DNA from: a virus
DNA: 42,609 nt
Direction: 5' to 3' (one strand)
IMG/VR virus record: IMGVR_UViG_3300020601_000863
Location: 1 to 42,609 of that record
The notes under the pieces were generated by a model that saw only the letters and a program-made list of their open reading frames with translations, searched no databases and was not told the DNA's origin. Shown here one piece after another: positions 5,203-33,680 of this stretch (its first letter is position 1; the number at the start of each line of letters is the position of its first letter). The translations under genes and the position numbers were made by a program.

Positions 5203-5229
5203 TTGCACAGGCTTATAATGCCTGTGCAA
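5203..5229. terminator. Hairpin between convergent genes
   Basis: A perfect 10-bp stem (TTGCACAGGC at 5203-5212 with GCCTGTGCAA at 5220-5229) has a 7-base loop containing the gmhB-like stop codon. It separates the convergent large virion gene and the minus-strand heptose operon. Neither strand shows a strong U-tract after the stem, so it may protect 3' ends or terminate with help rather than act as a classical intrinsic terminator. A second small palindrome (CAAGCAT A ATGCTTG, 5187-5201) overlaps the stop of the upstream gene. Confidence 0.5.
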
Positions 5230-5818
5230 ATTCCCACAAATCGTCAAATATATATGTTTGTTTTTGAAGTGTTCTGTAGGTAAACTTTTTCAATTCTTTT
5301 TCAGTTTCTGTTCCATGTCCTGTTCTTACTAGTACAGGTCTTGCACCCATTTTAACAGCAGCTTTTAGGTCAGAAATCTTGTCACCTACATAGTACCCTT
5401 GATTAAATTTAATAAACGGTACTTCTTTTTCGCAACGTTTGAACATGCCAGTATTTGGTTTGGCATACATATCTTCTTTACGACTGCTAGTGCTATAGTA
5501 TAATGCATCAATACTAGGACAACCTGCTCGACCTAATAGGTCGAACATGTAACGATGTACTTCTTCAACATCTTCACTAGTCATTAATCCTTTTTCGATT
5601 CCGCCTTGATTAGTTATTATTGCAATTTTATGACCTTTGGCTCTAATCATTGCAACTGCTTCTAAACTGTTAGGTAATGGATCAAAGTCTTGTGGACGAG
5701 TTACATAAGTGCCCAAGTCCCTATTAATAACACCGTCACGATCTAAACCAACTACACACTTATTTGCAACTTTAATTGCACCAGGAGCATCGCCTTGCCC
5801 CCAATATATATTTGTCAT
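5213..5818 (-). CDS. gmhB: HAD phosphatase, GmhB-like (heptose-bisphosphate phosphatase)
   Basis: This 201-residue protein carries the HAD motifs in order: nucleophile loop 'DRDGVINRD' (Asp26 and Asp28), 'ITNQGG' near residues 68-73, 'AKPNTGM' with the motif III lysine near 118, and 'GDKISD' near 145. The order and wording match GmhB, which removes the 7-phosphate from D-glycero-beta-D-manno-heptose 1,7-bisphosphate in ADP-heptose synthesis. The Cys-rich zinc loop usual just before 'RKP' in GmhB and HisB-N is absent; the equivalent stretch reads 'YYSTSSRKED'. It is the last gene of the operon and its ATG overlaps the cupin stop by 4 bases. Company with HldE and HldD supports the heptose role. 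A related HAD activity, such as on Kdo-8-phosphate, cannot be excluded. Confidence 0.8.
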   Translation of the reverse strand: MTNIYWGQGDAPGAIKVANKCVVGLDRDGVINRDLGTYVTRPQDFDPLPNSLEAVAMIRAKGHKIAIITNQGGIEKGLMTSEDVEEVHRYMFDLLGRAGCPSIDALYYSTSSRKEDMYAKPNTGMFKRCEKEVPFIKFNQGYYVGDKISDLKAAVKMGARPVLVRTGHGTETEKELKKFTYRTLQKQTYIFDDLWEFAQAL

Positions 5819-6201
5819 TGTGTTTCCTCTTTAGTTGATTGGCTGTCGCCTGGAATAATTCTATAATTCTCTTCAACACTATCGGGCGTACTTACTTCTG
5901 TAATACTTGAATTGGCTTCTAATGCTTCTAGTTGATGCGGCATCAACGGAGGATTACGCCAAGTATCGCCTTCACCTAATTCCTTTTCGTACAATGTTGC
6001 AGTAGTAGTGTCGATGTATCTTAATTTAAATCGTCCTGCATTTACAAACCAAGTTTCATCTTTTTCTCTATGGAAGTGCATACTAAACTTAGCACCAACT
6101 TTATCAAATACCATAATCTTACCACAGTAATGTTCATTAGTGGCCCAAATGAGTTCGTATCCCCATCCTTTTTTAACATAACCTTCTAGTCGTGTTGTCA
6201 T
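5815..6201 (-). CDS. Small cupin, mannose-6-phosphate isomerase type II-like
   Basis: This 128-residue single-domain cupin has a metal-binding signature 'HFHREKDETW' (His42, His44, Glu49) and a later 'PHQLEAL' giving the fourth ligand. The fold and the opening 'GWGYELIWA' resemble the sugar-phosphate cupins found beside nucleotide-sugar genes. The substrate is unknown. It sits in the heptose operon, 14 bases after the oxygenase and overlapping the phosphatase start by 4 bases. An AGGA sequence precedes the ATG. Because GmhA (sedoheptulose-7-phosphate isomerase) is missing from the window, an isomerase role in the pathway is an attractive guess, but the sequence alone does not show it. Confidence 0.7.
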   Translation of the reverse strand: MTTRLEGYVKKGWGYELIWATNEHYCGKIMVFDKVGAKFSMHFHREKDETWFVNAGRFKLRYIDTTTATLYEKELGEGDTWRNPPLMPHQLEALEANSSITEVSTPDSVEENYRIIPGDSQSTKEETQ

Positions 6202-6215
6202 TTTAAAATCCTTTA

Positions 6216-6848
6216 TTAATTGTATGTAAGATTATGTACGTTAAAGCTCATTGTAATCCGCACAACGTCACTTATAAATGGATATACTTGATGATTTAAA
6301 TCTGCATCAAACAAAAATATATCACCTGTTTTTGGAACAATTTTATGTGTATAATTACTGCTTTGAAATTCTAATTGCCCCGGACATCTCATATTTGAAT
6401 TTATTGGAATGTTTATAATTTCCTTAGATATTTCTTCAGGAACGTCAATCATGCATATTCCGCTTAATACGCCAGAATGTTTATGTGTTGGATTAAATTC
6501 GTGTTGTCGTTGATAATTAATCCAAGGCCCTGTACCTAAGTCGTAGTTAACAGTATTGACTGTATCTTCAATATTATTTAAAATGAGATTTTGTTTTATC
6601 CTTGTCATTCTCTCTTTAACGTACTGTTTAATATGTACATCGATAAATTTTAAAAATTGAGAAATTTGAATTTCATTACATGAAACAGATAATTGACTTT
6701 GAATATTTCCTGCTAAATTATGACCATTGCTTTGATTATTGCGTTTTGTACTTTCGGCAATTGCCGTTAATAAACTTTGTTCAATGGTAGTTGTGCTAGA
6801 ATGATATATTGATGGACCAAACGGTAATAATACTTTATACGGTTCCAT
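6216..6848 (-). CDS. Putative 2-oxoglutarate/Fe(II)-dependent oxygenase
   Basis: The predicted 210-residue protein matches the pattern of phage 2OG-Fe(II) oxygenases: 'FNPTHKHSGVLSG' gives the first iron-binding histidine region (near residues 122-124), 'LFDADLNHQVYP' the distal histidine (near 186), and 'RITMSFN' the 2-oxoglutarate-binding arginine (near 197). The family hydroxylates proteins or small molecules; the target here is unknown. I chose the ATG at 6848, preceded by GAGG nine bases upstream, over the longer TTG start at 6863. It overlaps the end of HldD by 14 bases, so it is part of the heptose operon. Similar oxygenases are common accessory genes in marine T4-like phages. Confidence 0.75.
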   Translation of the reverse strand: MEPYKVLLPFGPSIYHSSTTTIEQSLLTAIAESTKRNNQSNGHNLAGNIQSQLSVSCNEIQISQFLKFIDVHIKQYVKERMTRIKQNLILNNIEDTVNTVNYDLGTGPWINYQRQHEFNPTHKHSGVLSGICMIDVPEEISKEIINIPINSNMRCPGQLEFQSSNYTHKIVPKTGDIFLFDADLNHQVYPFISDVVRITMSFNVHNLTYN

Positions 6849-7656
6849 TAATATAATCCTCAATACCTGTAAACTTCATGTCTATAGTGTTATTTAATGA
6901 CGTCATGTTTGCACAAGTATATTTCTGGTATTGACTTTTTAGATTATCAGGCATAGGTACGTATTCAATTTCTGCATTATGTTTTTTAGCAATTGCCCTG
7001 GCTACTGTTTCGAAGCTAGTAGCAGTGCCTGTACCTACATTCCAAATTCCCTTGCCATCTACATTAAACATTTTTTCGTGTACTTGACAGATGTCTTCTA
7101 CACAAATAAAATCTCTTTTATACTGGTCTGAATTTTCAAAAAGTTTAATAATCCCAGTATTTTTTGCTTGTTGCGTAAACTTAGTATACGGACTTGCTTG
7201 ATCGCCTTTGTGTTCTTCGCCTGGACCATAAACATTAAAGTATCGAAAACCTTGAATATTAATAGTAAACTCGTCCTTGTGTTGATTAATAAATCTATCA
7301 AACAAAAACTTTGACCAGGCATATGGACTCTGCGGCAACAACATGCCATCTTCTGTAAAATGTTCAGTTGTGCCATATACACTAGCACTTGACGCATACT
7401 GGAAATTAGTACCCATCATTTCGCATGCTTGTACAAGTCGTAAACTATATTCAAAGTTTTGTTCTAAAATTTGTTCTACATCTGTAAATGTAGTTGCACT
7501 GATGGCACCTAGATGCACTACCCAGTCATAGTCTTCAGGGTTAGGAATAATGTTAGGACGATATTCCCATCCTTCTACTTCGTGACCTTTGCTTAACAAA
7601 TATAATGCAAGGTTTTTACCAATAAAGCCTTCGTGACCTGTAACTAATATTTTCAT
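6835..7656 (-). CDS. hldD: ADP-L-glycero-D-manno-heptose 6-epimerase (HldD-like)
   Basis: This 273-residue short-chain dehydrogenase-type epimerase opens with a Rossmann NAD(P) loop, 'MKILVTGHEGFIG', and has the catalytic Tyr112-x3-Lys116 in 'SPYAWSK'. It also has the HldD-diagnostic 'FRYFNVYGPGEEHKG' and 'GIWNVGTGTATSFE'. HldD inverts C6 of ADP-D-glycero-heptose to give ADP-L-glycero-heptose, the donor for inner-core LPS. Bacterial HldD is about 310 residues, so this copy is somewhat compact, but the catalytic parts are intact. The ATG overlaps the HldE stop (ATGA), indicating translational coupling. A general sugar epimerase is less likely given the diagnostic stretch and the HldE neighbour. 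Confidence 0.9.
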   Translation of the reverse strand: MKILVTGHEGFIGKNLALYLLSKGHEVEGWEYRPNIIPNPEDYDWVVHLGAISATTFTDVEQILEQNFEYSLRLVQACEMMGTNFQYASSASVYGTTEHFTEDGMLLPQSPYAWSKFLFDRFINQHKDEFTINIQGFRYFNVYGPGEEHKGDQASPYTKFTQQAKNTGIIKLFENSDQYKRDFICVEDICQVHEKMFNVDGKGIWNVGTGTATSFETVARAIAKKHNAEIEYVPMPDNLKSQYQKYTCANMTSLNNTIDMKFTGIEDYINGTV

Positions 7657-8792
7657 TTGCTTGCCTCTATAATTCTTGTTGTACTGTAACCTTCTACTAT
7701 AGGCACAATATGCACAGGTGCTAAGTCATGCCCCACTACAGTTTCTACAGTATAATCTCCGCCCTTAACAATAAGAGCAGGGTTTAATCTTTTAATTAAG
7801 TTATACGGAGTGTCGTCGTTGAACACAAACACTTCATCTACCCAAGGTAATGCCTCAAGTTGCTCTATTCTAGTTTGTTCATCATTAATCGGTCGACTGT
7901 CGCCTTTAAGCCGTTTAACACTTGCGTCACTGTTAATACCTACTACGAGTTTAGTACCTAAACTGCGAGCTTGTTTTAATAGTTCAAAATGTCCTTTGTG
8001 TAGTATATCAAATACGCCATTAGTAAACACTATAGATTGTTCAAAGTCTTTTTTACTTAAAACATATGTACCTGCATGTTTTACACTTTCGGTTGCTGCA
8101 TCAACAGCCATTTGTAAACAAGTTGCGTAATTTTTTCCAATGTCAATACCGTATACAAATGCTGCTAAGAAACAATCACCTGCTCCAGTAACATCTGATA
8201 CTTCAACTTGATCTACAATTGCGGTATAATCAGCATTGTCAATCTTGGCATGTACTGCGTCTTGTGCGTCAGTTGTAATAATGTTACCTAACCAGGTATC
8301 AAACCCTAAATCACGATATTCTTTGTTGTTAGGTTTAACTAACCATGCGCCTTTATAATAACTAGAATGGCGTTTAGGATCTACAATAACTTTACAGCCA
8401 AAATTATTAAGATGGGCTATAATTTCTAAAGAACGATCTAACACACCTTTGTTATAGTCGCTGAGAATAACATAGTTGTACTGCGAGAAATCAGTTGCTC
8501 GTATAGTGTCTAGCACTACATTGCCGTTGGCGTGTTTGTCATCATCTATGCGTGTAATATAATGACCGTCACAAATTACTCTAGTTTTGACACTGCTAGC
8601 ACTATCTGTTTTAAACAGGTCAACATCAACACCTAAACTTTTAAGGTTATCAAATACTAATCCAGCGCCGCCTATAGTTTCAACTTCACGCAGATATTTA
8701 ACTACAGGGACAGGAGCCTCCGGACTCAAGCGATTGCTTGTCCCATAGATATATTTGTCAATTATAACATCGCCAATTATTAAGACTTTCAT
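7653..8792 (-). CDS. hldE: Bifunctional heptose-7-phosphate kinase / heptose-1-phosphate adenylyltransferase (HldE-like)
   Basis: Two domains are visible. Residues 1-245 form a PfkB-type kinase with 'RLSPEAPVPV' (21-30), 'SDYNKG' near 111-116, 'VIVDPK' (135-140) and the catalytic 'DVTGAGD' ending at Asp206. Residues 253-379 form a nucleotidyltransferase with 'GVFDILHKGH' (259-268), 'GINSDASVKRLKGDSRPI' (285-302), 'IVKGGDY' and 'STTRIIE'. This is the HldE layout: phosphorylation of heptose-7-phosphate at C1, then adenylylation of heptose-1-phosphate. The protein has 379 residues against about 477 in E. coli, and the shortening lies in the kinase domain. It is the first gene of the operon. The -10 hexamer ends six bases before the ATG and no Shine-Dalgarno sequence is present. 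Confidence 0.93.
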   Translation of the reverse strand: MKVLIIGDVIIDKYIYGTSNRLSPEAPVPVVKYLREVETIGGAGLVFDNLKSLGVDVDLFKTDSASSVKTRVICDGHYITRIDDDKHANGNVVLDTIRATDFSQYNYVILSDYNKGVLDRSLEIIAHLNNFGCKVIVDPKRHSSYYKGAWLVKPNNKEYRDLGFDTWLGNIITTDAQDAVHAKIDNADYTAIVDQVEVSDVTGAGDCFLAAFVYGIDIGKNYATCLQMAVDAATESVKHAGTYVLSKKDFEQSIVFTNGVFDILHKGHFELLKQARSLGTKLVVGINSDASVKRLKGDSRPINDEQTRIEQLEALPWVDEVFVFNDDTPYNLIKRLNPALIVKGGDYTVETVVGHDLAPVHIVPIVEGYSTTRIIEASK

Positions 8793-8798
8793 AAAACT

Positions 8799-8827
8799 AT
8801 TATATACTCTTTGCGATTAATTGTCAA
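8799..8827 (-). promoter_or_regulatory. Consensus sigma70 promoter for the heptose operon
   Basis: On the minus strand TTGACA (8822-8827) is followed by a 17-base spacer and TATAAT (8799-8804), a perfect consensus. Only six bases separate the -10 from the hldE ATG at 8792, so transcription should start at or next to the start codon. The -35 lies just past the stop of the Nudix gene. This predicts early expression by the unmodified host polymerase. Confidence 0.9.
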
Positions 8828-9257
8828 GAAGATTTATAGTTTTAAATACAGTTTCTAATTTAGTTAGATTGACTTTACTTTGAAGGGTATTACGCAATCC
8901 ATGATGGAGAGGCTTTGGCCATTTAGTGAAACTACACCAAGCATACCCGTCATGTTCTTTATTTAAGATAGGAACAAATTCATTTTCTATTACACATAGA
9001 TACGTGTGAAAATGAAAATTTTCATCATTCGAAATAAAACTTTCTAATGGAAGTGTTTTCTTAATATCAGGTAATAATCCAATTTCCTCTTGGATTTCAC
9101 GCTTTAAACCTTCCCACGGAGTTTCACTGCCTTCGTTGGTTCCGCCAACTAATCCCCAAAGATCAGATCTCTTTCCTTGCGCACGATGCAGGAATAAAAA
9201 TCTATTAGTATTAAGTGTATAAAACAGCGCACCACTGCAAACTATTCTTGTGTTCAT
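8817..9257 (-). CDS. Nudix hydrolase
   Basis: The protein (146 residues from the chosen ATG) has a complete Nudix box: G-x5-E-x7-R-E-I-x-E-E-x-G-L, beginning 'GGTNEGSETPW' and ending 'REIQEEIGL'. Nudix enzymes cleave nucleoside diphosphates linked to another group, using a metal held by the box glutamates. The start could be ATG 9290, overlapping gp15 by 25 bases, or ATG 9257. I prefer 9257 because it leaves a normal Nudix N-terminus ('MNTRIVCSGALFY') and lies just after the gp15 stop; neither has a strong RBS. The substrate is unknown. Next to nucleotide-sugar genes it could act on a sugar nucleotide, but mRNA decapping or nucleotide clean-up is equally possible. Confidence 0.85.
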   Translation of the reverse strand: MNTRIVCSGALFYTLNTNRFLFLHRAQGKRSDLWGLVGGTNEGSETPWEGLKREIQEEIGLLPDIKKTLPLESFISNDENFHFHTYLCVIENEFVPILNKEHDGYAWCSFTKWPKPLHHGLRNTLQSKVNLTKLETVFKTINLLDN

Positions 9258-9265
9258 ACAAGTAG

Positions 9266-10678
9266 TTAGCCGTCGAGATCTATTCTCCATGTTCCAACTG
9301 GATAATCACCATCAATACTTAACAACCATTCACCGTTGCTGTATCGATATTGAACTGATGTATTTAGATTAGTAACATACGTAGTTTCACTAATTGATTG
9401 AGAATCAAAAACTATATTCCATTTAGTACCATCCCACTCGACTATATCGTTAGCATTGGCAACCAATCCAGTTGAGTCATTATTACGCCATGCTAGTGGA
9501 TTTTCTGTTGCAGTAGCATTACCTACACTTTCGAGAAGTAGAAGTCTAACACCTGCTGTCTTAATGCTGCTAGGATTAAATCTTGTAGGATCAATAATAA
9601 AATCAATACTTGTTCGCCCTGCAATCACAGTATCTTGAGGGAAACTGTCAGTGTCCCAATTAATTTCAATTTTGCCTTCGTCAAATGGATTGAGTGTGAA
9701 TGTTCCTGTAACTGTACTATCATTATTTGTGCTAGTTAAAAACAGTCTACTGACATCTGCTCTATAATAACCGGGTAATGCTTCGAAAATTTCTCTCCAA
9801 TTTTTATTACCAACAGTGCCACCGCTTATTAATTGAGCAGACCCATTGTCAACATATACTCCGTATCTGTTATAATTAACGTTTGCCATTTCGTTTGCTG
9901 CTAATGAAGTTGCCTTTGAACCAAATTCATTAGTTGTAGATCCAGGCACAGGCGTGTCATCATATGCATTTAATTCAGGAGCACTAACTCCGCTTTCAAT
10001 TGTACCTAATGATTCGTCGAACATACTAGTTATAACGTTTGTAATAACGCCCATCTTTTTAACTTTAGTAGGCGGTGATATGTATATAGGTACACTAAAT
10101 CCTAATGTAGCAATATCTATTTCACTGTCGACTCCTATAGGAACACTTCTATTACTCCACTGTACATTTTCTAAATTAACAACGGTAATGCTTGTCCAGT
10201 CAATAAAGTTATCAGTAGTTTGCATCTCTAAACTAGGATTAAACAATACTAATAATTGTTCTAAAATTTGTAACTTTTGATCTGTGTTTGATGCCCATAT
10301 ATCTGCATTAATGCGTAACAAATACGGTGTAGGAATTAATCTTTCAACTGTATAGTTTTTACCTTGAGTGTTTAGGTATTCATTATTAGTATCATCATAT
10401 GCACGTTCTCTAATATTAGTAGACCTAGTATAAGTTGCATCTGTTAATCTATCTTTGTCTAGTTCTAATCCAGTTACATAAACTGCAATTCTAGGAGCAC
10501 TAGGTAATTTATTTTCACTATTTTCTCTAATAATATTTGCAACTTGGCGAGACAAATCTCCGTAAGTTACAGGCACTACTTTTTGTTGACCTTTCCCGTC
10601 TTGTACAGGAAAGTTACTAAGAATACGCATCATTTGCGTAATATAACGTCTTACTTGTCCGTCGTAAAAGTGTTGCAT
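9266..10678 (-). CDS. 15: Tail terminator / sheath stabiliser, gp15-like
   Basis: The N-terminus 'FYDGQVRRYITQMMRILSN' aligns with the start of T4 gp15 (FYNSSFRRYATLMGDLFSN). A region near residues 110-200 ('TPYLLRINADIWASN', then 'QILEQLLVLFNPSLEMQ') matches the gp15 core. gp15 forms the hexamer that caps the tail tube and sheath and joins the tail to the neck. T4 gp15 is 272 residues; this one has 470, with an extra C-terminal beta-rich region (from about 260) ending in a 'EWDGTKW' motif. It follows gp14 with a TAATG stop-start overlap, so the two are translated together, probably from the late promoter in front of gp14. Confidence 0.8.
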   Translation of the reverse strand: MQHFYDGQVRRYITQMMRILSNFPVQDGKGQQKVVPVTYGDLSRQVANIIRENSENKLPSAPRIAVYVTGLELDKDRLTDATYTRSTNIRERAYDDTNNEYLNTQGKNYTVERLIPTPYLLRINADIWASNTDQKLQILEQLLVLFNPSLEMQTTDNFIDWTSITVVNLENVQWSNRSVPIGVDSEIDIATLGFSVPIYISPPTKVKKMGVITNVITSMFDESLGTIESGVSAPELNAYDDTPVPGSTTNEFGSKATSLAANEMANVNYNRYGVYVDNGSAQLISGGTVGNKNWREIFEALPGYYRADVSRLFLTSTNNDSTVTGTFTLNPFDEGKIEINWDTDSFPQDTVIAGRTSIDFIIDPTRFNPSSIKTAGVRLLLLESVGNATATENPLAWRNNDSTGLVANANDIVEWDGTKWNIVFDSQSISETTYVTNLNTSVQYRYSNGEWLLSIDGDYPVGTWRIDLDG

Positions 10679-11838
10679 TAATTATCCGCCTTGGGTCTAA
10701 GTGCTTTAGATAAGCTCTGACGCTCTTCGACAACTTCGCCGCCTATGGTGTTGGTTGCAGTATTATTGATAAAGCTAGACTTTTGAGTCTGTCTCTCAAG
10801 TGTATTACTTAGAGTCATTCTAATATCGTCATTGACCTTAACCCAGCGTTGACCGTCATATCTAAACATTCTATTTGGTAAGAAATCTGTACGCAAGTAA
10901 AAATCTCCCTTGACGTTTTCTCTAGGAAACGAAATACCAAAACCAAACGGAGCACCGTTAGGCGCAGCATCACCTGTTCCTACTAGGTAACCTGTATAAC
11001 CTTCTCGCTCTGGTCTACTTACAATTTCGTCAGTTGTATATGTAATATTTGACGCATCTAAATCTGTTTCATCAGCAGTTGTTAATGCAATGCTACCGTC
11101 ATCGTTTGTACTTACTGTGTAATAATGACTAATGTCGTATCCACTTTTAGGAGCATCAGCTTCTGCTTGTGCAACCACCGCAGCATTAATCTGCATTTCT
11201 TTTTCGTATGTACTTAAAATATCACGCAATGTAGTATCGCTACCTTCTTCTGCAGGCAAGTCAAGTATCTCTGCGTATTCTTGTCCGTCGTATATTTGTT
11301 TAAGTTTTAAACGATATAAGTGCGGATACCATGTCTGCGAAAATCCTTCAGCAGCACGATTAACATCTTCAACTACATAAAATCTTTTTAATGCAAAACT
11401 ATAATCGTTTGCAGCGTATTCGTCTTTTAAGTGAGGTAATTCAATTACATCACCACTCATTATTTTTCTGCCCAATGTTTTAACTGAACTATTAATGTGT
11501 ATTGTCAAGAACAATGTATCATTACTTAAAAACAATCCAAACTGACTAAGATCAAAGTCAATATCTTGTACATTATAAATGCCGCGCATTGTATAAATGT
11601 CTGGATCGTATTTTCTATCTCTATTTTCTAGGAATAGTAAGTCCTGTATATTAGTTTCCTTAACAGCATCATATTGAGGCTGATCAGCTGTGGCAGTTCC
11701 TGTATCTGGATTTTCTGGTCCTAGATACTTGTGTATGTTGATATCAGTACCGCCAACCGTAAACATCTCCTGAATCTGTCGATCTAGGAAATAGTAATCG
11801 TTACCGCGCTCTGGTTTGTATAAACTTATTCTTGGCAT
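10678..11838 (-). CDS. 14: Neck protein, gp14-like
   Basis: This 386-residue protein resembles T4 gp14 in its middle part: 'IMSGDVIELPHL' near 125-137, followed by 'ALKRFYVVEDVNRA' and a 'YRLKLKQI' strand. gp14 works with gp13 in the neck that seals the filled head and receives the tail. The N-terminal 'YYFLDRQIQEMFTVGGTDINIHKYL' region is characteristic of marine gp14 proteins as I know them. The C-terminal third carries 'RMFRYDGQRW' and is longer than in T4 (256 residues). The gene is first of a gp14-gp15 pair and is divergent from gp13, which is usually next to it. The ATG is five bases after a GATAAATA box, with no Shine-Dalgarno sequence. Confidence 0.8.
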   Translation of the reverse strand: MPRISLYKPERGNDYYFLDRQIQEMFTVGGTDINIHKYLGPENPDTGTATADQPQYDAVKETNIQDLLFLENRDRKYDPDIYTMRGIYNVQDIDFDLSQFGLFLSNDTLFLTIHINSSVKTLGRKIMSGDVIELPHLKDEYAANDYSFALKRFYVVEDVNRAAEGFSQTWYPHLYRLKLKQIYDGQEYAEILDLPAEEGSDTTLRDILSTYEKEMQINAAVVAQAEADAPKSGYDISHYYTVSTNDDGSIALTTADETDLDASNITYTTDEIVSRPEREGYTGYLVGTGDAAPNGAPFGFGISFPRENVKGDFYLRTDFLPNRMFRYDGQRWVKVNDDIRMTLSNTLERQTQKSSFINNTATNTIGGEVVEERQSLSKALRPKADN

Positions 11839-11843
11839 ATAAC

Positions 11844-11851
11844 TATTTATC
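11844..11851 (-). promoter_or_regulatory. T4-type late promoter box for gp14 (leaderless geometry)
   Basis: GATAAATA on the minus strand matches the T4 late consensus TATAAATA at seven of eight positions. Exactly five bases (GTTAT) separate it from the gp14 ATG at 11838. T4 late transcripts start about six bases after the box, which here is the A of the ATG. Confidence 0.75.
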
Positions 11852-11857
11852 GGTTAC

Positions 11858-11865
11858 GATAAATA
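11858..11865 (+). promoter_or_regulatory. T4-type late promoter box for gp13
   Basis: GATAAATA is followed by a short leader with GGAG (11872-11875) and the gp13 ATG at 11883. It is back to back with the minus-strand gp14 box, only six bases away. Confidence 0.75.
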
Positions 11866-11882
11866 CTATATGGAGAACACGC

Positions 11883-12641
11883 ATGGCTGATTTAGCAACA
11901 CAAAAACAAGAAGTATTTGACTATGTACATGCCTTTTTAGGCGGTGGCATGGTCGACGTTGAACTTGATCCAATTCACTACGAAACAGCTTTGAAAAAAG
12001 CATTAACCCGTTATCGTCAACGTAGCGATAATTCAGTTGAAGAGTCATACTTGTTTATGCCAACAGTGCTTGAACAAAACGAATATACGTTGCCCCAAGA
12101 AGTTGTTGAAGTTAGACAACTATTCCGTAGAAGTATTGGTTCGCGCACAAGCGGTAACGAAGGTGGCTCTACATTTGAACCCTTTAACGCAGCATATACC
12201 AATACCTATCTGCTTTCAAGTTCTAAAATGGGAGGACTAGCAACATACGATATGTTTAGTCAATACCAAGAACTTGTTGGACGTATGTTTGGTAGCTTTA
12301 TTGAATTTAAATGGAATTCAAACACTAAAAAATTAACTATTTTACAGAAGCCTACAGCAGACGAAACATTGTTAATTTATGCGTACAATTATCGTCCTGA
12401 CACTCAGCTATTAAGTGATTACATGGCAATACAGTGGCTTAAAGATTATACACTAGCAGCATGCAAATATATGCTAGGCGAAGCACGTTCAAAGTTTGCT
12501 ACTATTGCAGGTCCGCAAGGTGGATCAACACTTAACGGTGATGCACTAAAATCAGAAGCAACTGCTGAAATGGAAAAACTTGAACAAGAAGTTAGTCAAG
12601 GTGTTGCAGGCGGAAACGGCTACGGATTCTTAATCGGATAA
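11883..12641 (+). CDS. 13: Neck protein, gp13-like
   Basis: The 252-residue product matches marine T4-like gp13: 'VFDYVHAFLGGGMVDVELDP' near the N-terminus, 'ALTRYRQRSDNSVEESY', 'QNEYTLPQEVVEVRQLFRR', and 'KDYTLAACKYMLGEARSKF' near the C-terminus. gp13 and gp14 together complete the head portal after DNA packaging. The longer reading frame from 11832 was not used because ATG 11883 has GGAG eight bases upstream and starts with the family-like 'MADLATQKQ'. T4 gp13 is 309 residues, so this is a shorter member. It is transcribed away from its partner gp14. Confidence 0.85.
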   Translation: MADLATQKQEVFDYVHAFLGGGMVDVELDPIHYETALKKALTRYRQRSDNSVEESYLFMPTVLEQNEYTLPQEVVEVRQLFRRSIGSRTSGNEGGSTFEPFNAAYTNTYLLSSSKMGGLATYDMFSQYQELVGRMFGSFIEFKWNSNTKKLTILQKPTADETLLIYAYNYRPDTQLLSDYMAIQWLKDYTLAACKYMLGEARSKFATIAGPQGGSTLNGDALKSEATAEMEKLEQEVSQGVAGGNGYGFLIG

Positions 12642-18965: not shown

Positions 18966-18979
18966 GTTAAGGATAAATT

Positions 18980-19348
18980 ATGGCTACTGCTAAATCAGAT
19001 TCTACAAACCAACAAGATTCTGAACTTACTAAAAAGTTCTTCAACAATTATTATAATACAGAAATATCATATAGTGCAAGCGAAGTTGATGCAGTTATTG
19101 GATATTTTCTTAAAAGAGGTTTTGAGCAAACTGCTGCTATTAATACAGCAAGTGTATTATTGCAACAAGCACATATTGACAATGTTAAAGTATTCCAATT
19201 ATTAGACACATTAAAGGGTGTTAATGATATCCAGTTAAGCAATATTGTTGCACAAATCCTTAATTTAAATAGATCAAAAACTAGTACATTAGGATATAAA
19301 AATCCATCTGTAGGACAACTATTTGATCAAAGAAATATTTTAGTTTAA
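18980..19348 (+). CDS. Conserved small protein of the tail-head block, function unknown
   Basis: This 122-residue protein is mostly helical, with no membrane segment or catalytic motif. The pattern 'ASEVDAVIGYFLKRGFEQTA', 'LLQQAHIDNVKVFQLLDTL' and 'LNRSKTSTLGYKNP' resembles small uncharacterised proteins that I recall in the same place in marine T4-like phages. The ATG follows AAGGA by seven bases and the gene ends one base before gp4, so it is co-transcribed with the late genes. A structural or assembly role is inferred from position only. Confidence 0.6.
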   Translation: MATAKSDSTNQQDSELTKKFFNNYYNTEISYSASEVDAVIGYFLKRGFEQTAAINTASVLLQQAHIDNVKVFQLLDTLKGVNDIQLSNIVAQILNLNRSKTSTLGYKNPSVGQLFDQRNILV

Positions 19349-19349
19349 T

Positions 19350-19787
19350 ATGTCGAGATTTGCACAAGGTAAATTTAATCTAAAAAACCCTGAAAAATAT
19401 GTAGGAAATAAAACTCCTACATACCGCAGTGGTTGGGAATTTACTTTTATGAAATTTTGCGACGAACATGCTGCAATATCTCAATGGGCAAGTGAAGCAG
19501 TACGCATACCTTATAGAAATCCATTAAGTGGCAAGCAGACAATTTATGTACCAGACTTTTTTATTGTTTATGCAGATAAAAACGGAGCACAGCGAGTTGA
19601 GCTTATTGAAGTTAAACCTAAGAACCAATCAATAAAAGAAAACTTAGGCCGTAGCAAACATAATCAAGCACATTGGGTCATTAATCAAGCAAAATGGGAA
19701 GCTGCAAGAGCTTGGTGCAAACAAAAAGGAATTCTTTTCCGTATTGTTACTGAGGATGATATATTTCATCAAGGTAGAAAACGATAA
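19350..19787 (+). CDS. 4: Head completion protein gp4
   Basis: This 145-residue protein matches T4 gp4 (about 150): 'NPEKYVGNKTPTYRSGWEF' near the N-terminus, then 'SGKQTIYVPDFFIVY' and 'VELIEVKPKNQ'. The Asp in 'VPDFF' and the Glu and Lys in 'IEVK' form a PD-(D/E)XK nuclease-like core, as noted for the gp4/TnsA-like family. gp4 is needed to make filled heads competent to join tails. It lies one base after the previous gene and its stop codon overlaps the late box of the terminase small subunit. Confidence 0.88.
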   Translation: MSRFAQGKFNLKNPEKYVGNKTPTYRSGWEFTFMKFCDEHAAISQWASEAVRIPYRNPLSGKQTIYVPDFFIVYADKNGAQRVELIEVKPKNQSIKENLGRSKHNQAHWVINQAKWEAARAWCKQKGILFRIVTEDDIFHQGRKR

Positions 19788-19790
19788 ATA
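19783..19790 (+). promoter_or_regulatory. T4-type late promoter box for gp16
   Basis: GATAAATA overlaps the gp4 stop codon and lies 26 bases before the gp16 ATG at 19817, leaving a short leader with GGAC. Confidence 0.65.
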
Positions 19791-19816
19791 ATAGTAGCAC
19801 ATAATGGACTGGACCC

Positions 19817-20320
19817 ATGACAAAAAAATTAGAAGATTTATTAAATTTACCAGACTCTAAAGATATTATTAAAAATGCAGAGTCTCAGGAAAAAGAACAA
19901 GAAAGTTATGCTCTCAAGGAACAAGAAAAAACGTTTCGTGATATAGCAGAGTTTGATAAAATTGCTAGTGCATTGCCAGCAGTTAAAGGACTAGGCGAGA
20001 TGGCTGATAAAGAGCTTAATGAAATTGCTGACAAAGCAATGGAAGCATATGACGATCTAATGGATCTTGGTATGAATGTAGAAAGTCGTTATGCTAGTAG
20101 AGTATTTGAAGTTGCAGGCGGCTTGCTTAAAACCAGCTTAGATGCCAAGGTTGCTAAACTAGATAAAAAATTAAAAATGGTTGAGCTACAACTTAAAAAA
20201 GAAAAAATGGACAAAGAAGGTAGTACCGGCGATGACGGCATGATCAACGGTCAAGGATATGTTGTTACAGATAGAAACAGTCTTCTAGAGCGCCTTAAAG
20301 GCTTAGATAAAGATAAATAG
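19817..20320 (+). CDS. 16: Terminase small subunit gp16-like
   Basis: This 167-residue, highly charged helical protein has a long coiled-coil-like region ('RVFEVAGGLLKTSLDAKVAK', 'LDKKLKMVELQLKKEKM', about residues 95-135), the pattern of marine gp16 proteins. T4 gp16 is 164 residues. It forms rings that recognise viral DNA and stimulate the gp17 motor. The position between gp4 and the prohead/gp17 block supports this. Small terminases vary a lot in sequence, so the call relies on length, helix pattern and place. Confidence 0.75.
   Translation: MTKKLEDLLNLPDSKDIIKNAESQEKEQESYALKEQEKTFRDIAEFDKIASALPAVKGLGEMADKELNEIADKAMEAYDDLMDLGMNVESRYASRVFEVAGGLLKTSLDAKVAKLDKKLKMVELQLKKEKMDKEGSTGDDGMINGQGYVVTDRNSLLERLKGLDKDK
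20312..20319 (+). promoter_or_regulatory. T4-type late promoter box for the first prohead-internal gene
   Basis: GATAAATA overlaps the gp16 stop codon. A leader with AGAGG (20326-20330) follows, with the ATG at 20341. Confidence 0.7.
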
Positions 20321-20340
20321 TTTATAGAGGATTATATAAA

Positions 20341-20832
20341 ATGAGATCATTTCGCGACATATTAACAGAATCAAAAAAGACCTATGATTTTAAAATAGGA
20401 GTTGCTGGAGAACTTCCAGAGCACTTTGCTGATCATATGGAAACCGCACTTAAAAAGTTTGGTCTTGTTAATCTTACAACAGGTAAAAAAACACCAATTC
20501 AGGAACGTCCACTAGACTTTCCACAATTACAAAATATGGAAGTTACGTACTTTGAAACTTCAGTTGAATACCCAACTACTATACAAGTATTACAAGAGTA
20601 TTTAGGTAAAGCATGTACAGTTGATCAAAGCCGAATTATTGTACGTAATCCAAACGAACCACAAGAACTGTATCAACAAGAAACAGAGGACGAAATATAC
20701 GAACCTTTGATTACTAAAGAAGATATGGGCGGTGAGTCTGCACAAGACAGCGTAGGCGAAAATAGAGTAATGGGTTTGCTCAAAGAACTAGAAAAAGCTA
20801 GCAAAGAACGTGCAGCTACACAGGAGAACTAA
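20341..20832 (+). CDS. Probable prohead-internal protein with capsid-targeting sequence
   Basis: The function is not established. The N-terminus 'MRSFRDILTES' is similar position by position to the capsid-targeting sequence of T4 internal proteins (MKTYQEFIAE), and the 'LTE' at residues 8-10 fits the gp21 protease rule (L/I)-x-E. In T4 this peptide carries proteins into the prohead and is then cut off. The rest (163 residues in all) has a mixed alpha/beta core ('FADHMETALKKFGLVNL', 'MEVTYFETSVEYPTT', 'SRIIVRNPNEP') and an acidic tail. It lies two bases before the next gene, which also has an early L-x-E site. It may be an internal or capsid-inner-face protein. Confidence 0.6.
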   Translation: MRSFRDILTESKKTYDFKIGVAGELPEHFADHMETALKKFGLVNLTTGKKTPIQERPLDFPQLQNMEVTYFETSVEYPTTIQVLQEYLGKACTVDQSRIIVRNPNEPQELYQQETEDEIYEPLITKEDMGGESAQDSVGENRVMGLLKELEKASKERAATQEN

Positions 20833-25009: not shown

Positions 25010-25038
25010 TTGACAATCGTTATAAACCAGTATATAAT
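25010..25038 (+). promoter_or_regulatory. Consensus sigma70 promoter for gp32
   Basis: TTGACA (25010-25015), a 17-base spacer and TATAAT (25033-25038) form a perfect consensus. It gives a leader of about 75 bases before the gp32 ATG, unlike the leaderless sigma70 promoters elsewhere in the window. Confidence 0.92.
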
Positions 25039-27506: not shown

Positions 27507-27962
27507 ATGGGATGGTACTCAGAAGTATCGCGTGACATTAGTAAGATTCCTGATGCAGTAATGCATTATGAAACTGAATTGTTAACTGCAAAAAATGAGG
27601 TAAAACTCAAAGGTAATGTAGAACGTGCTGCTGCTGAGATGCCAGGCATTGTTGAACATCGTTTCAATCAGCTTCAAGAAATTGAAGCAATCTTGAACTA
27701 CTTGAATATCGAGCTACGTAGGTTGCGTAGCTCGTACTTCAAAAAATATCTTGAAAACTATCAACGTGCATTGAGCAGTCGTGATGTAGAGCGTTATGTT
27801 GATGGCGAAGCAGATGTAGTTGACTACGAAAAAATTATTAACGAGTTTGCACTTATGCGTAACAAATGGTTAGGTGTGCTCAAAGCACTTGATCAAAAGC
27901 AATGGCAAATTACTAACGTGGTTAAATTACGTGTTGCAGGGATGGAAGATGCTTCTATATGA
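27507..27962 (+). CDS. uvsY: UvsY recombination mediator
   Basis: This 151-residue helical, basic protein fits UvsY in length (137 in T4), place and pattern: an N-terminal helix 'MHYETELLTAKNEVKLKG', a middle 'NIELRRLRSSYFKKYLENYQ' and a C-terminal 'QKQWQITNVVKLRVAGMEDA', similar to the T4 end ('GFAIKHIQDMRAFEAG'). UvsY helps UvsX replace gp32 on ssDNA. It lies two bases after the small acidic gene, and its stop overlaps the following glycosyltransferase start (ATGA). Confidence 0.85.
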   Translation: MGWYSEVSRDISKIPDAVMHYETELLTAKNEVKLKGNVERAAAEMPGIVEHRFNQLQEIEAILNYLNIELRRLRSSYFKKYLENYQRALSSRDVERYVDGEADVVDYEKIINEFALMRNKWLGVLKALDQKQWQITNVVKLRVAGMEDASI

Positions 27963-28654
27963 TCGACTTTTTTTGCATTTATAAAAAAAATGACGAACGA
28001 AGTACGCGATTAGCAAACGAAGCGATTCAATCAGGAAAAAAATACAACATTAATGTACACTTACACGAAGGTGTTTATTCTAACATTGATGGAATAATGA
28101 AAGACGAAGGATTAGTAGTCAATCATTGGGGCAAACAAAAAATACGAGCAATAGGAGTTCTTGGCTGCTTTTTAAGTCATTATACTCTTTGGAAAAAGTG
28201 TATTGATTTAAACAAACCAATAGGTGTACTAGAGTACGATGCATATTTTATAAATTCATTACCTGATAATTTTTTAAATTCATTTAAAGATTATTGTAAT
28301 TTAGATTACACTCGCCATTTATACTACGGCACCGGAAAAGAATTATATCTACAAAATTTAGAATATGACAAGCCGATTACTATTCATCCATTAGAAGAAC
28401 GAGCTCCGGAAAAAAGAGGATCGTTCAAACATATGAATAATAATCATATCAAAGGTGCCTTCGGATATGTTATTAAACCATCAGGTGCAACCAAGCTAGT
28501 AACTGCTTCAAAAGAATTTGGGATATTACCTGCTGATGTACAGCCTAACTTAAATTATTGTAATGTCTATTATACTACTCCGAGTGTAGTGATGTTAAAT
28601 ATGAATAGCCTATACGATAGGTTTTCACATACACAAACTGATCAAACGGAATAA
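27959..28654 (+). CDS. Glycosyltransferase family 25-like
   Basis: This 231-residue protein has the GT25 pattern 'RAIGVLGCFLSHYTLWKKC' (about 60-78), then 'IGVLEYDAYF' where the family has an acidic E-D-D metal/sugar site, and 'HIKGAFGYVIKPSGATKL' (about 160-180). GT25 enzymes add sugars, often galactose, to bacterial LPS. Key acidic residues are only partly kept (EYD rather than EDD), so the donor cannot be predicted. The ATG overlaps the uvsY stop by four bases, so it is read from the same mRNA as the recombination genes. It opens the surface-glycan cluster. Confidence 0.8.
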   Translation: MIDFFCIYKKNDERSTRLANEAIQSGKKYNINVHLHEGVYSNIDGIMKDEGLVVNHWGKQKIRAIGVLGCFLSHYTLWKKCIDLNKPIGVLEYDAYFINSLPDNFLNSFKDYCNLDYTRHLYYGTGKELYLQNLEYDKPITIHPLEERAPEKRGSFKHMNNNHIKGAFGYVIKPSGATKLVTASKEFGILPADVQPNLNYCNVYYTTPSVVMLNMNSLYDRFSHTQTDQTE

Positions 28655-28658
28655 TATC

Positions 28659-29291
28659 ATGGAACATTTAGTAGAACTTAGAGACGGTTGGTGGTGGCCC
28701 AAGCATGACGTTGCTTGCTGGAGATATTTGTCTAGAAGACAAGATGTTCCTACAAACGTATCTGCATATACTAAACAACAGCGAGTAGTTGTACAAGCCG
28801 GCGGCAATGCTGGCATGTATGTAAAAAAGTATGAAGACATTTTTGATACAGTTTACACATTTGAACCCGATCCAATAAATTTTTATTGCCTAACAAAAAA
28901 TACTAGTAATAGAACTATTAAGTTTCAAGGATGTTTAGGAAACGAAACAAACTTTGTAAATTTGTCATATGATGAAACACATCATAAAAAGCCCAACAGC
29001 GGTGGGTATCGTGTTAAAGGTACTGGAATTATTCCTACATTAATACTTGATAATTTTAATCTTTCGATTGTAGATTTAATACATTTAGATATCGAAGGAT
29101 TTGAAAAGTTTGCATTACTAGGTGCAATTGAAACTATAAAACGCTGCAAGCCTGTAATTGCGTTAGAATTAAATGGCCTAGCAGAAAAATATAATCATAC
29201 CAATAACGATGTTAAACAGTTAGTAATCGAGTTAGGATATACTGAAACTGGAATAGTAGATGATGACATTATATTTGAATATAAGAGTTAA
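28659..29291 (+). CDS. FkbM-family methyltransferase (copy 1)
   Basis: This 210-residue Rossmann methyltransferase has the SAM loop 'VVQAGGNAGMYVKKY' (about 48-62), the acidic strand 'VYTFEPDPINFYCL' and 'DLIHLDIEGFEKFALLGA' (about 145-162), all diagnostic of the FkbM family. Members methylate sugars, glycolipids or other small molecules. The variant 'QAGGN' replaces the usual 'D-x-GAN'. It is a clear paralogue of the next gene, with motifs in the same order and spacing. It lies four bases after the GT25 gene. The substrate is unknown; O-methylation of a glycan made by the neighbours is the simplest idea. Confidence 0.85.
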   Translation: MEHLVELRDGWWWPKHDVACWRYLSRRQDVPTNVSAYTKQQRVVVQAGGNAGMYVKKYEDIFDTVYTFEPDPINFYCLTKNTSNRTIKFQGCLGNETNFVNLSYDETHHKKPNSGGYRVKGTGIIPTLILDNFNLSIVDLIHLDIEGFEKFALLGAIETIKRCKPVIALELNGLAEKYNHTNNDVKQLVIELGYTETGIVDDDIIFEYKS

Positions 29292-29293
29292 TA

Positions 29294-29932
29294 ATGGAAA
29301 ATAATATAACTTTAGTTAACGGGTTTTATTTTCCAACAATCGGCGCAACTAACGCAAATAAACAAAAAGCCAATTGGGATGAACAACCTAAGCTAATAGC
29401 AGGTTATGCTAAGAATAAAAAAACTTGTATTCAAGCAGGCGGAAACGTTGGGTATTATACTAAAATTTATGCAGGCATTTTTGATACAGTATACACATTT
29501 GAACCTAACCCGTTAAATTTCTTTTGTCTTGTTAAAAATGTGCAAGATAGCAATGTTATTAAAATGCAATCATGTTTAGGTAATACGCACCAATTAGTTG
29601 ATATAGCATTGCCTGCATCACATGTTAAAAAAGGTATAAACATAGGAACTTATTATATATCAGGTAAAGGCAAAATACCTACAATGCTAATTGATGATTT
29701 AAATTTAGACAGTTGCGACCTAATACATTTAGATATTGAAGGCTTTGAAGTTAATGCAATTAACGGCGGACTTTTGACTATTAAAAAATTTAAACCTATT
29801 ATATGTTTAGAAATTAATTCTGCATTGCAAAACTTTAATTACTCTGCTAATACAGTATTCGACTTAATGAAATCTTTAAATTATAAATTAGTAGATCAAA
29901 TTAACGAAGACTATATATTCGAGGGCGTGTAA
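29294..29932 (+). CDS. FkbM-family methyltransferase (copy 2)
   Basis: This 212-residue protein is paralogous to the gene just before: 'CIQAGGNVGYYTKIYAGIFD', 'VYTFEPNPLNFFCLVKN', 'DLIHLDIEGFEVNAINGG' and 'KPIICLEINS'. The same unusual 'QAGGN' SAM loop shows a tandem duplication rather than two separate gains. The copies differ enough that they probably act at different positions or on different acceptors. It starts two bases after copy 1, and its last base is the first of the next gene's ATG. Confidence 0.85.
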   Translation: MENNITLVNGFYFPTIGATNANKQKANWDEQPKLIAGYAKNKKTCIQAGGNVGYYTKIYAGIFDTVYTFEPNPLNFFCLVKNVQDSNVIKMQSCLGNTHQLVDIALPASHVKKGINIGTYYISGKGKIPTMLIDDLNLDSCDLIHLDIEGFEVNAINGGLLTIKKFKPIICLEINSALQNFNYSANTVFDLMKSLNYKLVDQINEDYIFEGV

Positions 29933-31402: not shown

Positions 31403-32179
31403 ATGAAACATCGTGTAGTATTAGTTACAGGAGGCTTTGACCCACTTCACAGTGGTCATATCGCCTACTTTAAAGAAGCAAAAAAACTTGGCTCTAAATT
31501 GATTGTCGGAGTTAACAGTGATAATTGGTTGACTCGTAAAAAAGGCAGACCGTTTATGCCATTTGAAGAACGTGTTGCTATTATTAAAGAATTAGCATGT
31601 GTGGACAAGGTCATAGGTTTTGACGACAGCGACAATACAGCATGTCAGGCAATCTTTCATACATTAAGTACACACGGTACTGAAACAAAAGTTATTTTTG
31701 CAAATGGTGGTGATAGAACTAATACAACAACTCCGGAATATAAAGTATACGGAAGCATGCCCTATGTCGAATTTGCTTTCGGAGTTGGTGGAGAGCATAA
31801 GAAAAACTCAAGCAGTTGGATTCTTGACGAATGGAAAGCACCTAAGACAGAACGTCAATGGGGATATTATCGTGTACTCCATGAAGTCGAAGGATGCAAA
31901 GTAAAAGAACTTACTGTTGATCCGGGAAAAAGTTTAAGCATGCAACGACACGATTATCGTTCAGAACATTGGATGGTTAGTGAAGGTGCGTGTATTGTAC
32001 ACAGTAAGATGCCAAACGGATACAGTTTGCCACCTAGAGAATTAACAGTACATCAAGCATTTGAAATCCCAGTAGGCGAATGGCATCAATTGACTAATCC
32101 GTTTGATGTTCCTTGTAGAATAGTAGAAATACAATACGGAGAGCATTGTATAGAAGAAGATATAGAGAGAGAAGATTAA
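31403..32179 (+). CDS. Nucleotidyltransferase-cupin fusion (sugar-nucleotide type)
   Basis: Two domains are fused in 258 residues. Residues 1-130 form a cytidylyltransferase-like domain with 'TGGFDPLHSGH' (HxGH motif, about 9-19), 'IVGVNSDNWLTRKKGRPF' and 'FANGGDR', close to the HldE C-terminal domain. Residues 150-258 form a type II mannose-6-phosphate-isomerase-like cupin ('YYRVLHEVEGCKVKELTVDP', 'LSMQRHDYRSEHWMV', 'IPVGEWHQLTNPF', 'IVEIQYGEHCIEEDI'). The pairing suggests one protein that both isomerises (or binds) a sugar phosphate and activates it, but the sugar is unknown. It is first in a chain of overlapping glycan genes. Confidence 0.8.
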   Translation: MKHRVVLVTGGFDPLHSGHIAYFKEAKKLGSKLIVGVNSDNWLTRKKGRPFMPFEERVAIIKELACVDKVIGFDDSDNTACQAIFHTLSTHGTETKVIFANGGDRTNTTTPEYKVYGSMPYVEFAFGVGGEHKKNSSSWILDEWKAPKTERQWGYYRVLHEVEGCKVKELTVDPGKSLSMQRHDYRSEHWMVSEGACIVHSKMPNGYSLPPRELTVHQAFEIPVGEWHQLTNPFDVPCRIVEIQYGEHCIEEDIERED

Positions 32180-32853
32180 TGAAAGTATTTGTAGGATACG
32201 ATACACGGGAAGATATTGCATATCAAGTGTGCAAGCACAGCATCCAAACAAGAAGCAAAGATGCAGTAGTACATCCGTTAAAACAACAAGAGCTTAGAGA
32301 TGCAGGATGGTATACTAGACCAGTTGATAAACTTGCAAGTACTGAATTTACCTTTACACGATTTCTTGTACCTGAACTAATGAACTTTAAAGGATGGGCA
32401 GTGTTTATGGACTGCGACATGTTGATTACTACAGACATTGCAGAACTATTTGCACAAGCAGACGATAGGTATGCAGTTATGTGTGTACAACACGATTACA
32501 CTCCTAAAGAAGGCATGAAGATGGACGGACAGAAACAAACTGTTTATCCACGCAAGAACTGGTCAAGTGTAATGTTGATCAACTGCGGTCATCCTAGCAA
32601 TGCTAGACTTACACAAGACTTAGTTAATGATCCAGAAATTAACGGAGCATATCTACATCGCCTTAGTTGGCTTAGGGACGAAGAAGTAGGTGCATTAGAT
32701 CACACCTGGAACTACTTAGTAGGCGTATACGATAACATCAAAACTCCTAAATTAATACATTATACAGAAGGCGGCCCATGGTTTGAAAATTATAGAAACT
32801 GCGAGTACCATACAGAATGGAAAATAGAATTACAGAATATGATGAGGTCCTAA
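32179..32853 (+). CDS. GT-A glycosyltransferase, GT8-like
   Basis: The 224-residue protein from ATG 32179 begins 'MKVFVGYDTREDIAYQVC' and has 'STEFTFTRFLVPELM' and 'WAVFMDCDMLITTDI' with the D-x-D motif (about 76-78). 'WSSVMLINCGHPSNARLT' and the late 'DHTWNYLVG', 'PKLIHYTEGGPWF' complete a GT8-like pattern. Such enzymes transfer glucose or galactose in LPS outer-core synthesis. The start overlaps the previous stop (TAATG) and the longer start at 32146 is not needed. It is followed by two GT-B-like genes. Confidence 0.8.
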   Translation: MKVFVGYDTREDIAYQVCKHSIQTRSKDAVVHPLKQQELRDAGWYTRPVDKLASTEFTFTRFLVPELMNFKGWAVFMDCDMLITTDIAELFAQADDRYAVMCVQHDYTPKEGMKMDGQKQTVYPRKNWSSVMLINCGHPSNARLTQDLVNDPEINGAYLHRLSWLRDEEVGALDHTWNYLVGVYDNIKTPKLIHYTEGGPWFENYRNCEYHTEWKIELQNMMRS

Positions 32854-33680
32854 TGGGTAAAGTAGTTGCAATTGACAGTGTAGGCGGATTTAATTGGAAC
32901 GCCAAAGGGCACGACTATGATCCTTATCTAAAAAGTTTTATTAAAGGCGCCGACGGCGCTGCTTCGAACTGGGACAAAGAAAAAGATACAACTTCAACTC
33001 TTGTTATTAGAGGCCTCGGCGGCGGCAGTCAAAAAGCAATCAAGCATTGCTGGAAAACAAATAGAGAATTTTATGCTATCGATACTGGTTATTTTGGTAA
33101 CTGGAAACACAAAAGATGGCATAGAATAACCCGTAACGCCTTACAGAATTCTGGACCAATAATTGAACGTTCGGATGATAGACTAACAACTATTATGGGT
33201 TCTTGGAATAATATTTGGAAACCATTTACTCCTGGCAGTAAGATTTTAGTATGCCCGCCCAGTGATAAAGTTATGAGTTTATGGGATCAAGGCACTGCTG
33301 AAGATTGGACTAATCAGCTAGTAGAAAAAATAAAAACATTAACTGATCGCCCTATAGAAATTAGAATGAAACCTAACAGAAGTTCTAGAGTAACTGATCA
33401 AACAATTCAACAAGCACTTGCTAATGATGTACATTGTTTAGTAACATATAATAGCATTGCTGCAACTGAAGCATTAATTGAAGGGAAATGTGCTATAAGT
33501 TTAGGCCCAAATGCTGCGCAAGTAATTGCAGAAACAGAGTTAAATAATATTGAAAATCCTAGAGTCCCGTCAGAAGATGAAATGTTTGCATTTATGAAAC
33601 ACTTATCGTATGCACAATTTACCCAAGAAGAAATGGAAAACGGATTTGCATGGAATACACTTCAGGAGACTATTCAGTGA
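32853..33680 (+). CDS. GT-B-like glycan protein, paralogue 1 of 3
   Basis: This 275-residue protein starts at ATG 32853, overlapping the previous stop (TAATG). The C-terminal half has 'DRPIEIRMKPNRSSR', 'HCLVTYNSIAATEALIEGKC' and 'IENPRVPSED', then 'FTQEEMENGFAWNTL'. The same order occurs in the genes at 33677 and 35441. The nucleotide-sugar-side pattern (R-x-x-P, then V-x-Y-N-S with a small residue-rich helix and G-x-x-x-x-x-L-G) resembles the C-terminal half of capsule-type GT-B enzymes such as KpsS/KpsC. The N-terminal half is short and the GT-B fold may be partial. The sugar is unknown; a Kdo donor is possible because kdsA and kdsB are in the window. Confidence 0.6.
   Translation: MGKVVAIDSVGGFNWNAKGHDYDPYLKSFIKGADGAASNWDKEKDTTSTLVIRGLGGGSQKAIKHCWKTNREFYAIDTGYFGNWKHKRWHRITRNALQNSGPIIERSDDRLTTIMGSWNNIWKPFTPGSKILVCPPSDKVMSLWDQGTAEDWTNQLVEKIKTLTDRPIEIRMKPNRSSRVTDQTIQQALANDVHCLVTYNSIAATEALIEGKCAISLGPNAAQVIAETELNNIENPRVPSEDEMFAFMKHLSYAQFTQEEMENGFAWNTLQETIQ

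Follow-up and report, generated by a model that had tools for sequence, protein, structure and literature searches.

Introduction

In Escherichia coli, the steps of the heptose pathway that follow GmhA are catalysed by HldE, HldD and GmhB, and enzymes of this kind have been reported from viruses. Phage P-SSM2 possesses 24 lipopolysaccharide (LPS) genes, for which the idea of superinfection control has already been published (PMC2984593), and kdsA, kdsB and heptose genes figure among the auxiliary metabolic genes of marine surveys (PMC10653327, PMC9529941). Viral biosynthetic enzymes for nucleoside-diphosphate heptoses were described by Tang et al. (2024); as far as that work is summarised in PMC11461863, they are active in vitro and a phosphatase is lacking in viruses. 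Our literature search returned no study that treats ADP-heptose and phage together with auxiliary metabolic genes. Here, we describe a heptose gene module (positions 5213-8792, minus strand) carried by the IMG/VR record IMGVR_UViG_3300020601_000863. The analysed stretch, referred to as the window, is this entire 42.6-kb viral record (1-42609), a fragment of a marine T4-like phage.

We propose that the heptose enzymes of this phage, together with enzymes for 3-deoxy-D-manno-octulosonic acid (Kdo) and a set of transferases, assemble a glycan of the inner-core type, whose likeliest site is the envelope of the host cell during infection. Heptose and Kdo are the sugars that characterise the inner core of the bacterial outer membrane. 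The probability that we assign to this reading is about 0.5. Phages with such genes, those of the P-SSM2 type among them, and viral heptose enzymes were already known; what is new is so nearly complete a set behind a strong and conserved promoter, in which one phage combines a GmhB-like phosphatase with a Kdo branch and transferase-like proteins.

The heptose operon and its enzymes

The module encodes, in one run on the minus strand, a compact HldE-like protein of 379 residues (7653-8792), in which a PfkB-type heptose-7-phosphate kinase is fused to a heptose-1-phosphate adenylyltransferase, an HldD-like ADP-glyceromanno-heptose 6-epimerase of 273 residues (6835-7656), a 2-oxoglutarate (2OG)-Fe(II) oxygenase (PF13759; 6216-6863), a small cupin (phrog_7851; 5815-6201) and a GmhB-like phosphatase of the haloacid dehalogenase (HAD) type (5213-5818). 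Adjacent genes in several cases share a few bases at their ends, an operon-like arrangement. The preliminary description of this DNA had reported the same five genes as a unit, and all are indeed present; the oxygenase, however, is not a conserved member, being found in only 4 of 80 relatives.

The family matches and alignments support the assignment of the three putative pathway enzymes. The HldE-like protein matched both the PfkB kinase and the nucleotidyltransferase families, with 268 bits to the NCBIfam HldE model (E 1e-79). For the HldD-like protein the best family by far was TIGR02197 (241 bits, E 1.5e-71), while the GmhB-like protein scored best against PRK08942 (126 bits) and, in the Protein Data Bank (PDB), against 4pnh, a D,D-heptose 1,7-bisphosphate phosphatase. 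When the proteins are aligned with their E. coli counterparts, HldE retains the GAGD motif of the kinase and the HxGH and C-terminal STT motifs of the nucleotidyltransferase, HldD retains the Ser, the YxxxK motif and the second catalytic Lys (Lys178 in E. coli), and the GmhB-like protein retains the HAD motifs DxDG, TNQ, KP and GDK. The three post-GmhA enzymes and their key motifs are those of the E. coli pathway, from which the phage set differs in its compact and divergent HldE (the copy on a 335-kb relative is 32% identical to that of E. coli), in a GmhB without zinc-binding cysteines and in having no GmhA. The HldE kinase is shortened through internal deletions, with a core segment gone, the cofactor loop of HldD is incomplete, and the zinc-binding Cys/His cluster of GmhB was missing in all phage copies aligned. 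All three heptose enzymes fell below curated equivalog cut-offs, HldE with 268 against 521, 163 against 181.5 and 160 against 345 bits, HldD with 241 against 274.6 bits and GmhB likewise; these NCBIfam cut-offs are bacterial, and compact, divergent phage proteins may miss them.

The closest described locus is the LPS cluster of P-SSM2 (PSSM2_307-314), which lies between tail-fibre genes in its genome and comprises a compact heptose kinase, a nucleotidyltransferase, a cupin, an epimerase, a 2OG oxygenase, a carbamoyltransferase and a relative of the glycosyltransferase family 9 (GT9)-like protein discussed below. In P-SSM2, however, the kinase and nucleotidyltransferase are separate genes, ∼38% identical to the HldE of the window, and the slot of the phosphatase holds a small HAD-like protein mislabelled as phosphoheptose isomerase. 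We rejected this "phosphoheptose isomerase" of P-SSM2 (L161:13113-13457) and of P-TIM68 (L162:10272-10610) as a GmhA candidate, as both are small HAD-like proteins with the sequence DIDGTIC; the label misleads pathway surveys. A promoter placed for a leaderless transcript was identified in the present clade, to which that search was confined, and P-SSM2 is not among the KdsA matches. The enzymes of Tang et al. (2024), as far as they are presented in PMC11461863, differ in two respects. A GmhB-like phosphatase occurs here in 27 of the 34 relatives with sufficient downstream sequence, and the motif Arg said there to permit the use of CTP or UTP is, in our own alignment, a Tyr in the present protein.

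Conservation, synteny and selection

At least 407 stretches of the viral collection encode an HldE relative and at least 373 encode a KdsA relative. The loci compared were the best 80 matches of each search; they were not drawn at random, and some are near-duplicates. Counts of gene presence in the module refer to the 34 HldE loci with more than 3.5 kb of downstream sequence. The gene order in the best 80 HldE loci was nearly fixed, running from the sheath, HNH and neck genes through a sheath stabiliser and a NUDIX hydrolase to HldE, HldD, the cupin, GmhB and a large virion protein. The NUDIX gene (8817-9290, minus strand) is thus the constant upstream neighbour and at its 3' end shares bases with the -35 box of the promoter described below. 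Within the loci with room, HldD and the cupin were present in 34/34 and GmhB in 27/34, with the 2OG oxygenase in 2/34; this patchy occurrence led us to reject the oxygenase as a pathway enzyme and to regard it as an occasional insert.

The dN/dS values of ∼0.1-0.2 for HldE, HldD, GmhB and the cupin demonstrate purifying selection. The nearest cellular homologues of HldE are at most 37% identical, except for two contigs in one metagenome-assembled genome (MAG) at 64%. Given the distance of the cellular homologues and the fact that one of these two contigs is a phage contig, HldE has probably long been a phage gene. The HldE of the window is 96% identical to that of a related locus, L001 (10001-11143), in which the flanking NUDIX hydrolase, sheath stabiliser and HldD are only 66%, 51% and 58% identical, so HldE itself seems to have been exchanged between phage lineages. 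L001 additionally carries tryptophan-halogenase-type genes inside and beside its heptose module, at 11136-12572 (Pfam match) and 18966-20447 (from reading the sequence).

Promoter analysis

A perfect sigma-70-type promoter, TTGACA-N17-TATAAT (12/12 positions), is located at 8799-8827 on the minus strand, its -10 box ending 6 nt before the HldE ATG. The expected number of perfect consensus promoters for the window is 0.08; it has two, a number reached by no shuffled sequence. The only other one lies at 25010-25038, ∼80 nt before the gene at 25120. The HldE promoter is perfect in 67 of the 80 related viral loci and carries one or two mismatches in another 12 (79/80 conserved), and the distance from the -10 box to the ATG is 6 nt in 75. 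Across 38 distinct sequences, conservation reached 92-100% at most hexamer positions and 84% at the final base of the -35 box; the central part of the spacer was variable, as were most of the bases separating the -10 box from the ATG. Transcription would start at or beside the ATG, and a leaderless HldE mRNA is therefore expected.

The consensus promoter of the preliminary description thus holds up in sequence, position and conservation; that it acts early, as stated there, would follow from its sigma-70 consensus. The window contains no copy of the T4 late promoter octamer TATAAATA, of which 6.5 would be expected. This suggests that the phage uses a different late promoter or avoids the octamer, and early or late timing cannot be argued from this element. 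The demand for heptose during infection that had been suggested for this phage follows from the conservation, the purifying selection and the promoter.

The Kdo branch and the transferase-like proteins

Apart from the heptose operon, the window encodes a CMP-Kdo branch on the plus strand, which the preliminary description had overlooked together with the transferase-like proteins, although its enzyme assignments stand. KdsA, the Kdo-8-phosphate synthase (40063-40839), scored 338 and 325.7 bits, above the cut-offs of 242 and 314. It is followed by a KdsB-like CMP-Kdo synthetase (40836-41516), whose best family by far is KdsB (E 6.5e-51), at 172.9 bits against a cut-off of 193. A second small cupin, homologous to that of the heptose operon, adjoins the pair (39448-39801). 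In KdsA loci with room, KdsB follows in 64/71, the cupin precedes in 65/72 and Kdo-transferase-like proteins are found in 30/39.

The latter family is represented in the window by three unannotated paralogues on the plus strand, one of which (33650-34609) was modelled with a mean predicted local distance difference test (pLDDT) score of 92.8; the others lie at 32817-33680 and 35372-36292. The predicted structures were compared with known structures, bearing in mind that folds do not prove substrates. The 15 best structural matches of this GT-B model were all retaining β-Kdo transferases of the KpsC/WbbB/KrkA type (Z 11.9-14.4), the next family reaching 10.9. In the family profile, the HP and Ser motifs are in register with E. 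coli KpsC; the hhalign match itself is weak (probability 1%), the register resting on the motifs. Pfam offered no relevant family common to the members, and PDB sequence searches with both transferase profiles gave nothing significant, matches coming only from structure comparison. We therefore describe these proteins as Kdo-transferase-like rather than as members of GT99 or GT107.

Downstream of the heptose genes, related contigs encode a NodU/CmcH-type O-carbamoyltransferase and a GT9-like protein of 306-331 residues. Both genes lie just beyond the edge of the window, and their presence in this phage would follow from its relatives. The GT9-like protein was modelled with a pLDDT of 81, and its model gave Z scores of 18-22.5 to GT9 heptosyltransferases (a Veillonella GT9 22.5, WaaF 20.8, WaaC 19.6, TibC 18.3) against 12.4 for unrelated GT-B enzymes; plant NDH subunits, which have the same fold, scored 17-18. 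The proteins also carry a D-S-x-G-x-H motif that resembles D-T/S-G-x-x-H of the known enzymes.

Further sugar-related genes were identified by family matches between the two branches. These are an LPS-type GT25 glycosyltransferase (27959-28654, plus strand), an FkbM methyltransferase (28659-29291, plus strand) with a related copy at 29294-29932, a sulfotransferase (PF03567; 30700-31392, minus strand), an HldE-C-like nucleotidyltransferase fused to a mannose-6-phosphate-isomerase-type cupin (31403-32179, plus strand) and a GT8 glycosyltransferase (32182-32853, plus strand). Nucleotidyltransferase-domain proteins of ∼260 residues related to this fusion occur in many KdsA phage contigs.

The 335-kb relative and the putative host

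The T4-like character claimed in the preliminary description is borne out by the T4-type terminase, the sheath and the neck genes. A large genome is indicated by a colinear 335-kb contig (88% identity to the window in terminase, 64% in HldE and 75% in KdsA), which, judged by its sequence, is a jumbo phage contig, whether whole or partial. Genes for both sugar branches are present on it, along with those for the carbamoyltransferase and the GT9-like protein. A Candidatus Neomarinimicrobiota MAG includes this contig as one of two large contigs with a phage-type HldE (L187 and L188; PBPT01000016.1 and PBPT01000082.1), likely through mis-binning.

At ∼42 kb, the 335-kb contig contains a permuted alphaproteobacterial transfer-messenger RNA (tmRNA; L274:2048-2355; RF01849, 145 bits) with the tag ANDNYAPEMAMAA; it also has several tRNAs. 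The tmRNA is a hint to the host. Among 96 sampled alphaproteobacteria, 58 had a SIS_2 protein and 47 an HldE-type domain over the cut-off, so that a host GmhA is possible and not certain.

Discussion

Based on the genes, conservation, promoter, selection and folds, we infer the substrates, their use in one glycan, its location on the host surface and a benefit in superinfection exclusion. The locus would be a phage-encoded activated-heptose module that turns host-supplied heptose-7-phosphate into ADP-heptose, and host RNA polymerase would transcribe it from the consensus sigma-70 promoter of the module. KdsA and KdsB would supply CMP-Kdo, with KdsD and KdsC coming from the host. The Kdo-transferase-like GT-B proteins of the window, with the GT9 fold and the O-carbamoyltransferase of the relatives, would then assemble an inner-core-like heptose/Kdo glycan, probably carbamoylated. 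On the envelope of the infected cell such a glycan may alter the phage receptor, which would benefit the phage through superinfection exclusion. The proposed assembly rests on the coincidence of two inner-core sugar donors with matching transferase folds and a carbamoyltransferase. The core heptose of Pseudomonas bears an O-carbamoyl group attributed to WapO (PMC8005017).

Several observations weigh against this proposal. The GT-B proteins, which resemble KpsC, WbbB and KrkA in fold and in the HP and Ser motifs, differ from them in having Gly or Ser in nearly all members in place of the KpsC nucleophile Asp160 of the QxxxD motif, with an Asp or Asn two residues earlier. Similarly, the GT9-like proteins share the fold and the His motif of WaaF, WaaC and TibC and differ in the position of the WaaC catalytic Asp13, which is Arg in all of them. 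Neither the window nor 31 related contigs nor the 335-kb contig yielded a GmhA (SIS_2), as the preliminary description had stated for this one step, and the search it proposed elsewhere in the genome gave none on the colinear contig either. Matches in the MAG that holds the 335-kb contig lie only on other contigs and were rejected as a phage GmhA. KdsC was not found in 30 related contigs, and tblastn of the 335-kb contig revealed no GmhA, KdsC, KdsD, WaaA or WaaC/F. The module consequently depends on the host, which may itself lack the heptose pathway, as a full HldE-type enzyme occurs in only about half of the sampled alphaproteobacteria. Finally, the module lies within the tail gene block, adjoining, next to GmhB, a large repetitive virion protein of 1728 residues, a location that fits glycosylation of the virion as well.

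Under that explanation, ADP-heptose, with or without CMP-Kdo, would decorate tail or fibre proteins such as this large virion protein for disguise or for tuning adsorption, the GT9-like enzyme acting in the manner of TibC. The position of the P-SSM2 cluster and the appearance of TibC, a protein heptosyltransferase, among the structural matches agree with it. Yet TibC does not outscore the LPS enzymes WaaF and WaaC, and unrelated genes are also commonly gained in tail-fibre regions. Kdo is typical of lipid-linked surface glycans, and the Kdo branch and Kdo-transferase-like folds accordingly favour the host surface. We consider virion glycosylation rather unlikely, while noting that sequence does not decide between LPS and virion. 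A bolder version, which we hold to be doubtful, is a dedicated Kdo-heptose assembly line that makes a structure absent from the host, be it on the tail of the virion or in place of the inner core of the infected cell, by means of variant transferases with altered catalytic residues and with a carbamoyl cap. The loss of the kinase core segment, of part of the epimerase cofactor loop and of the zinc cysteines, together with the missed cut-offs and the missing GmhA, could mean that a different sugar phosphate is the substrate of the compact kinase and epimerase, whose product would be a non-heptose nucleotide sugar. This appears unlikely, since the best matches of three independent enzymes all belong to the heptose pathway with key motifs retained; the compact kinase is moreover common to cyanophages (phrog_8133; P-SSM2), and viral heptose enzymes are reported as active in the summary given by PMC11461863.

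The remaining explanations are less probable still. The enzymes duplicate ordinary host steps, rely on host GmhA, KdsC and KdsD and are placed under a strong host-type promoter, so they might sustain host LPS synthesis once host genes are shut off in a lengthy jumbo-phage infection, creating no new structure. The phage-specific carbamoyl-, sulfo- and methyltransferases, GT25 and GT8 suggest a distinct structure instead and make mere envelope maintenance improbable. Control of ADP-heptose as a signal, which would block or feed a host sensing or defence pathway, recalls its role as a known signal to animal cells (PMC11461863); we found no bacterial ADP-heptose defence pathway in the literature searched, a Kdo branch and transferases linked to the heptose genes are at odds with it, and we regard this idea as highly improbable. 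Of the uses first proposed, glycan building is thus favoured by KdsA, KdsB, the Kdo-transferase-like proteins and the GT9 fold and carbamoyltransferase of the relatives, and pure signalling becomes less probable. Random cargo, the stuffer-DNA idea quoted for phage LPS genes (PMC9529941), could be argued from the tolerance of jumbo genomes for cargo and from the patchy GmhB and 2OG genes, but the strong purifying selection, fixed synteny and conserved promoter leave it hardly credible.

Phage LPS genes have appeared in lists of auxiliary metabolic genes for two decades, with no product defined for them. The module adds the phosphatase that the survey of viral heptose enzymes reported as missing, as well as compact enzyme variants of interest for assay. 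The linked sugar donors, transferase-like proteins, carbamoyltransferase and fixed promoter would point to a concrete product, a carbamoylated heptose/Kdo glycan, that may be sought on infected cells and virions.

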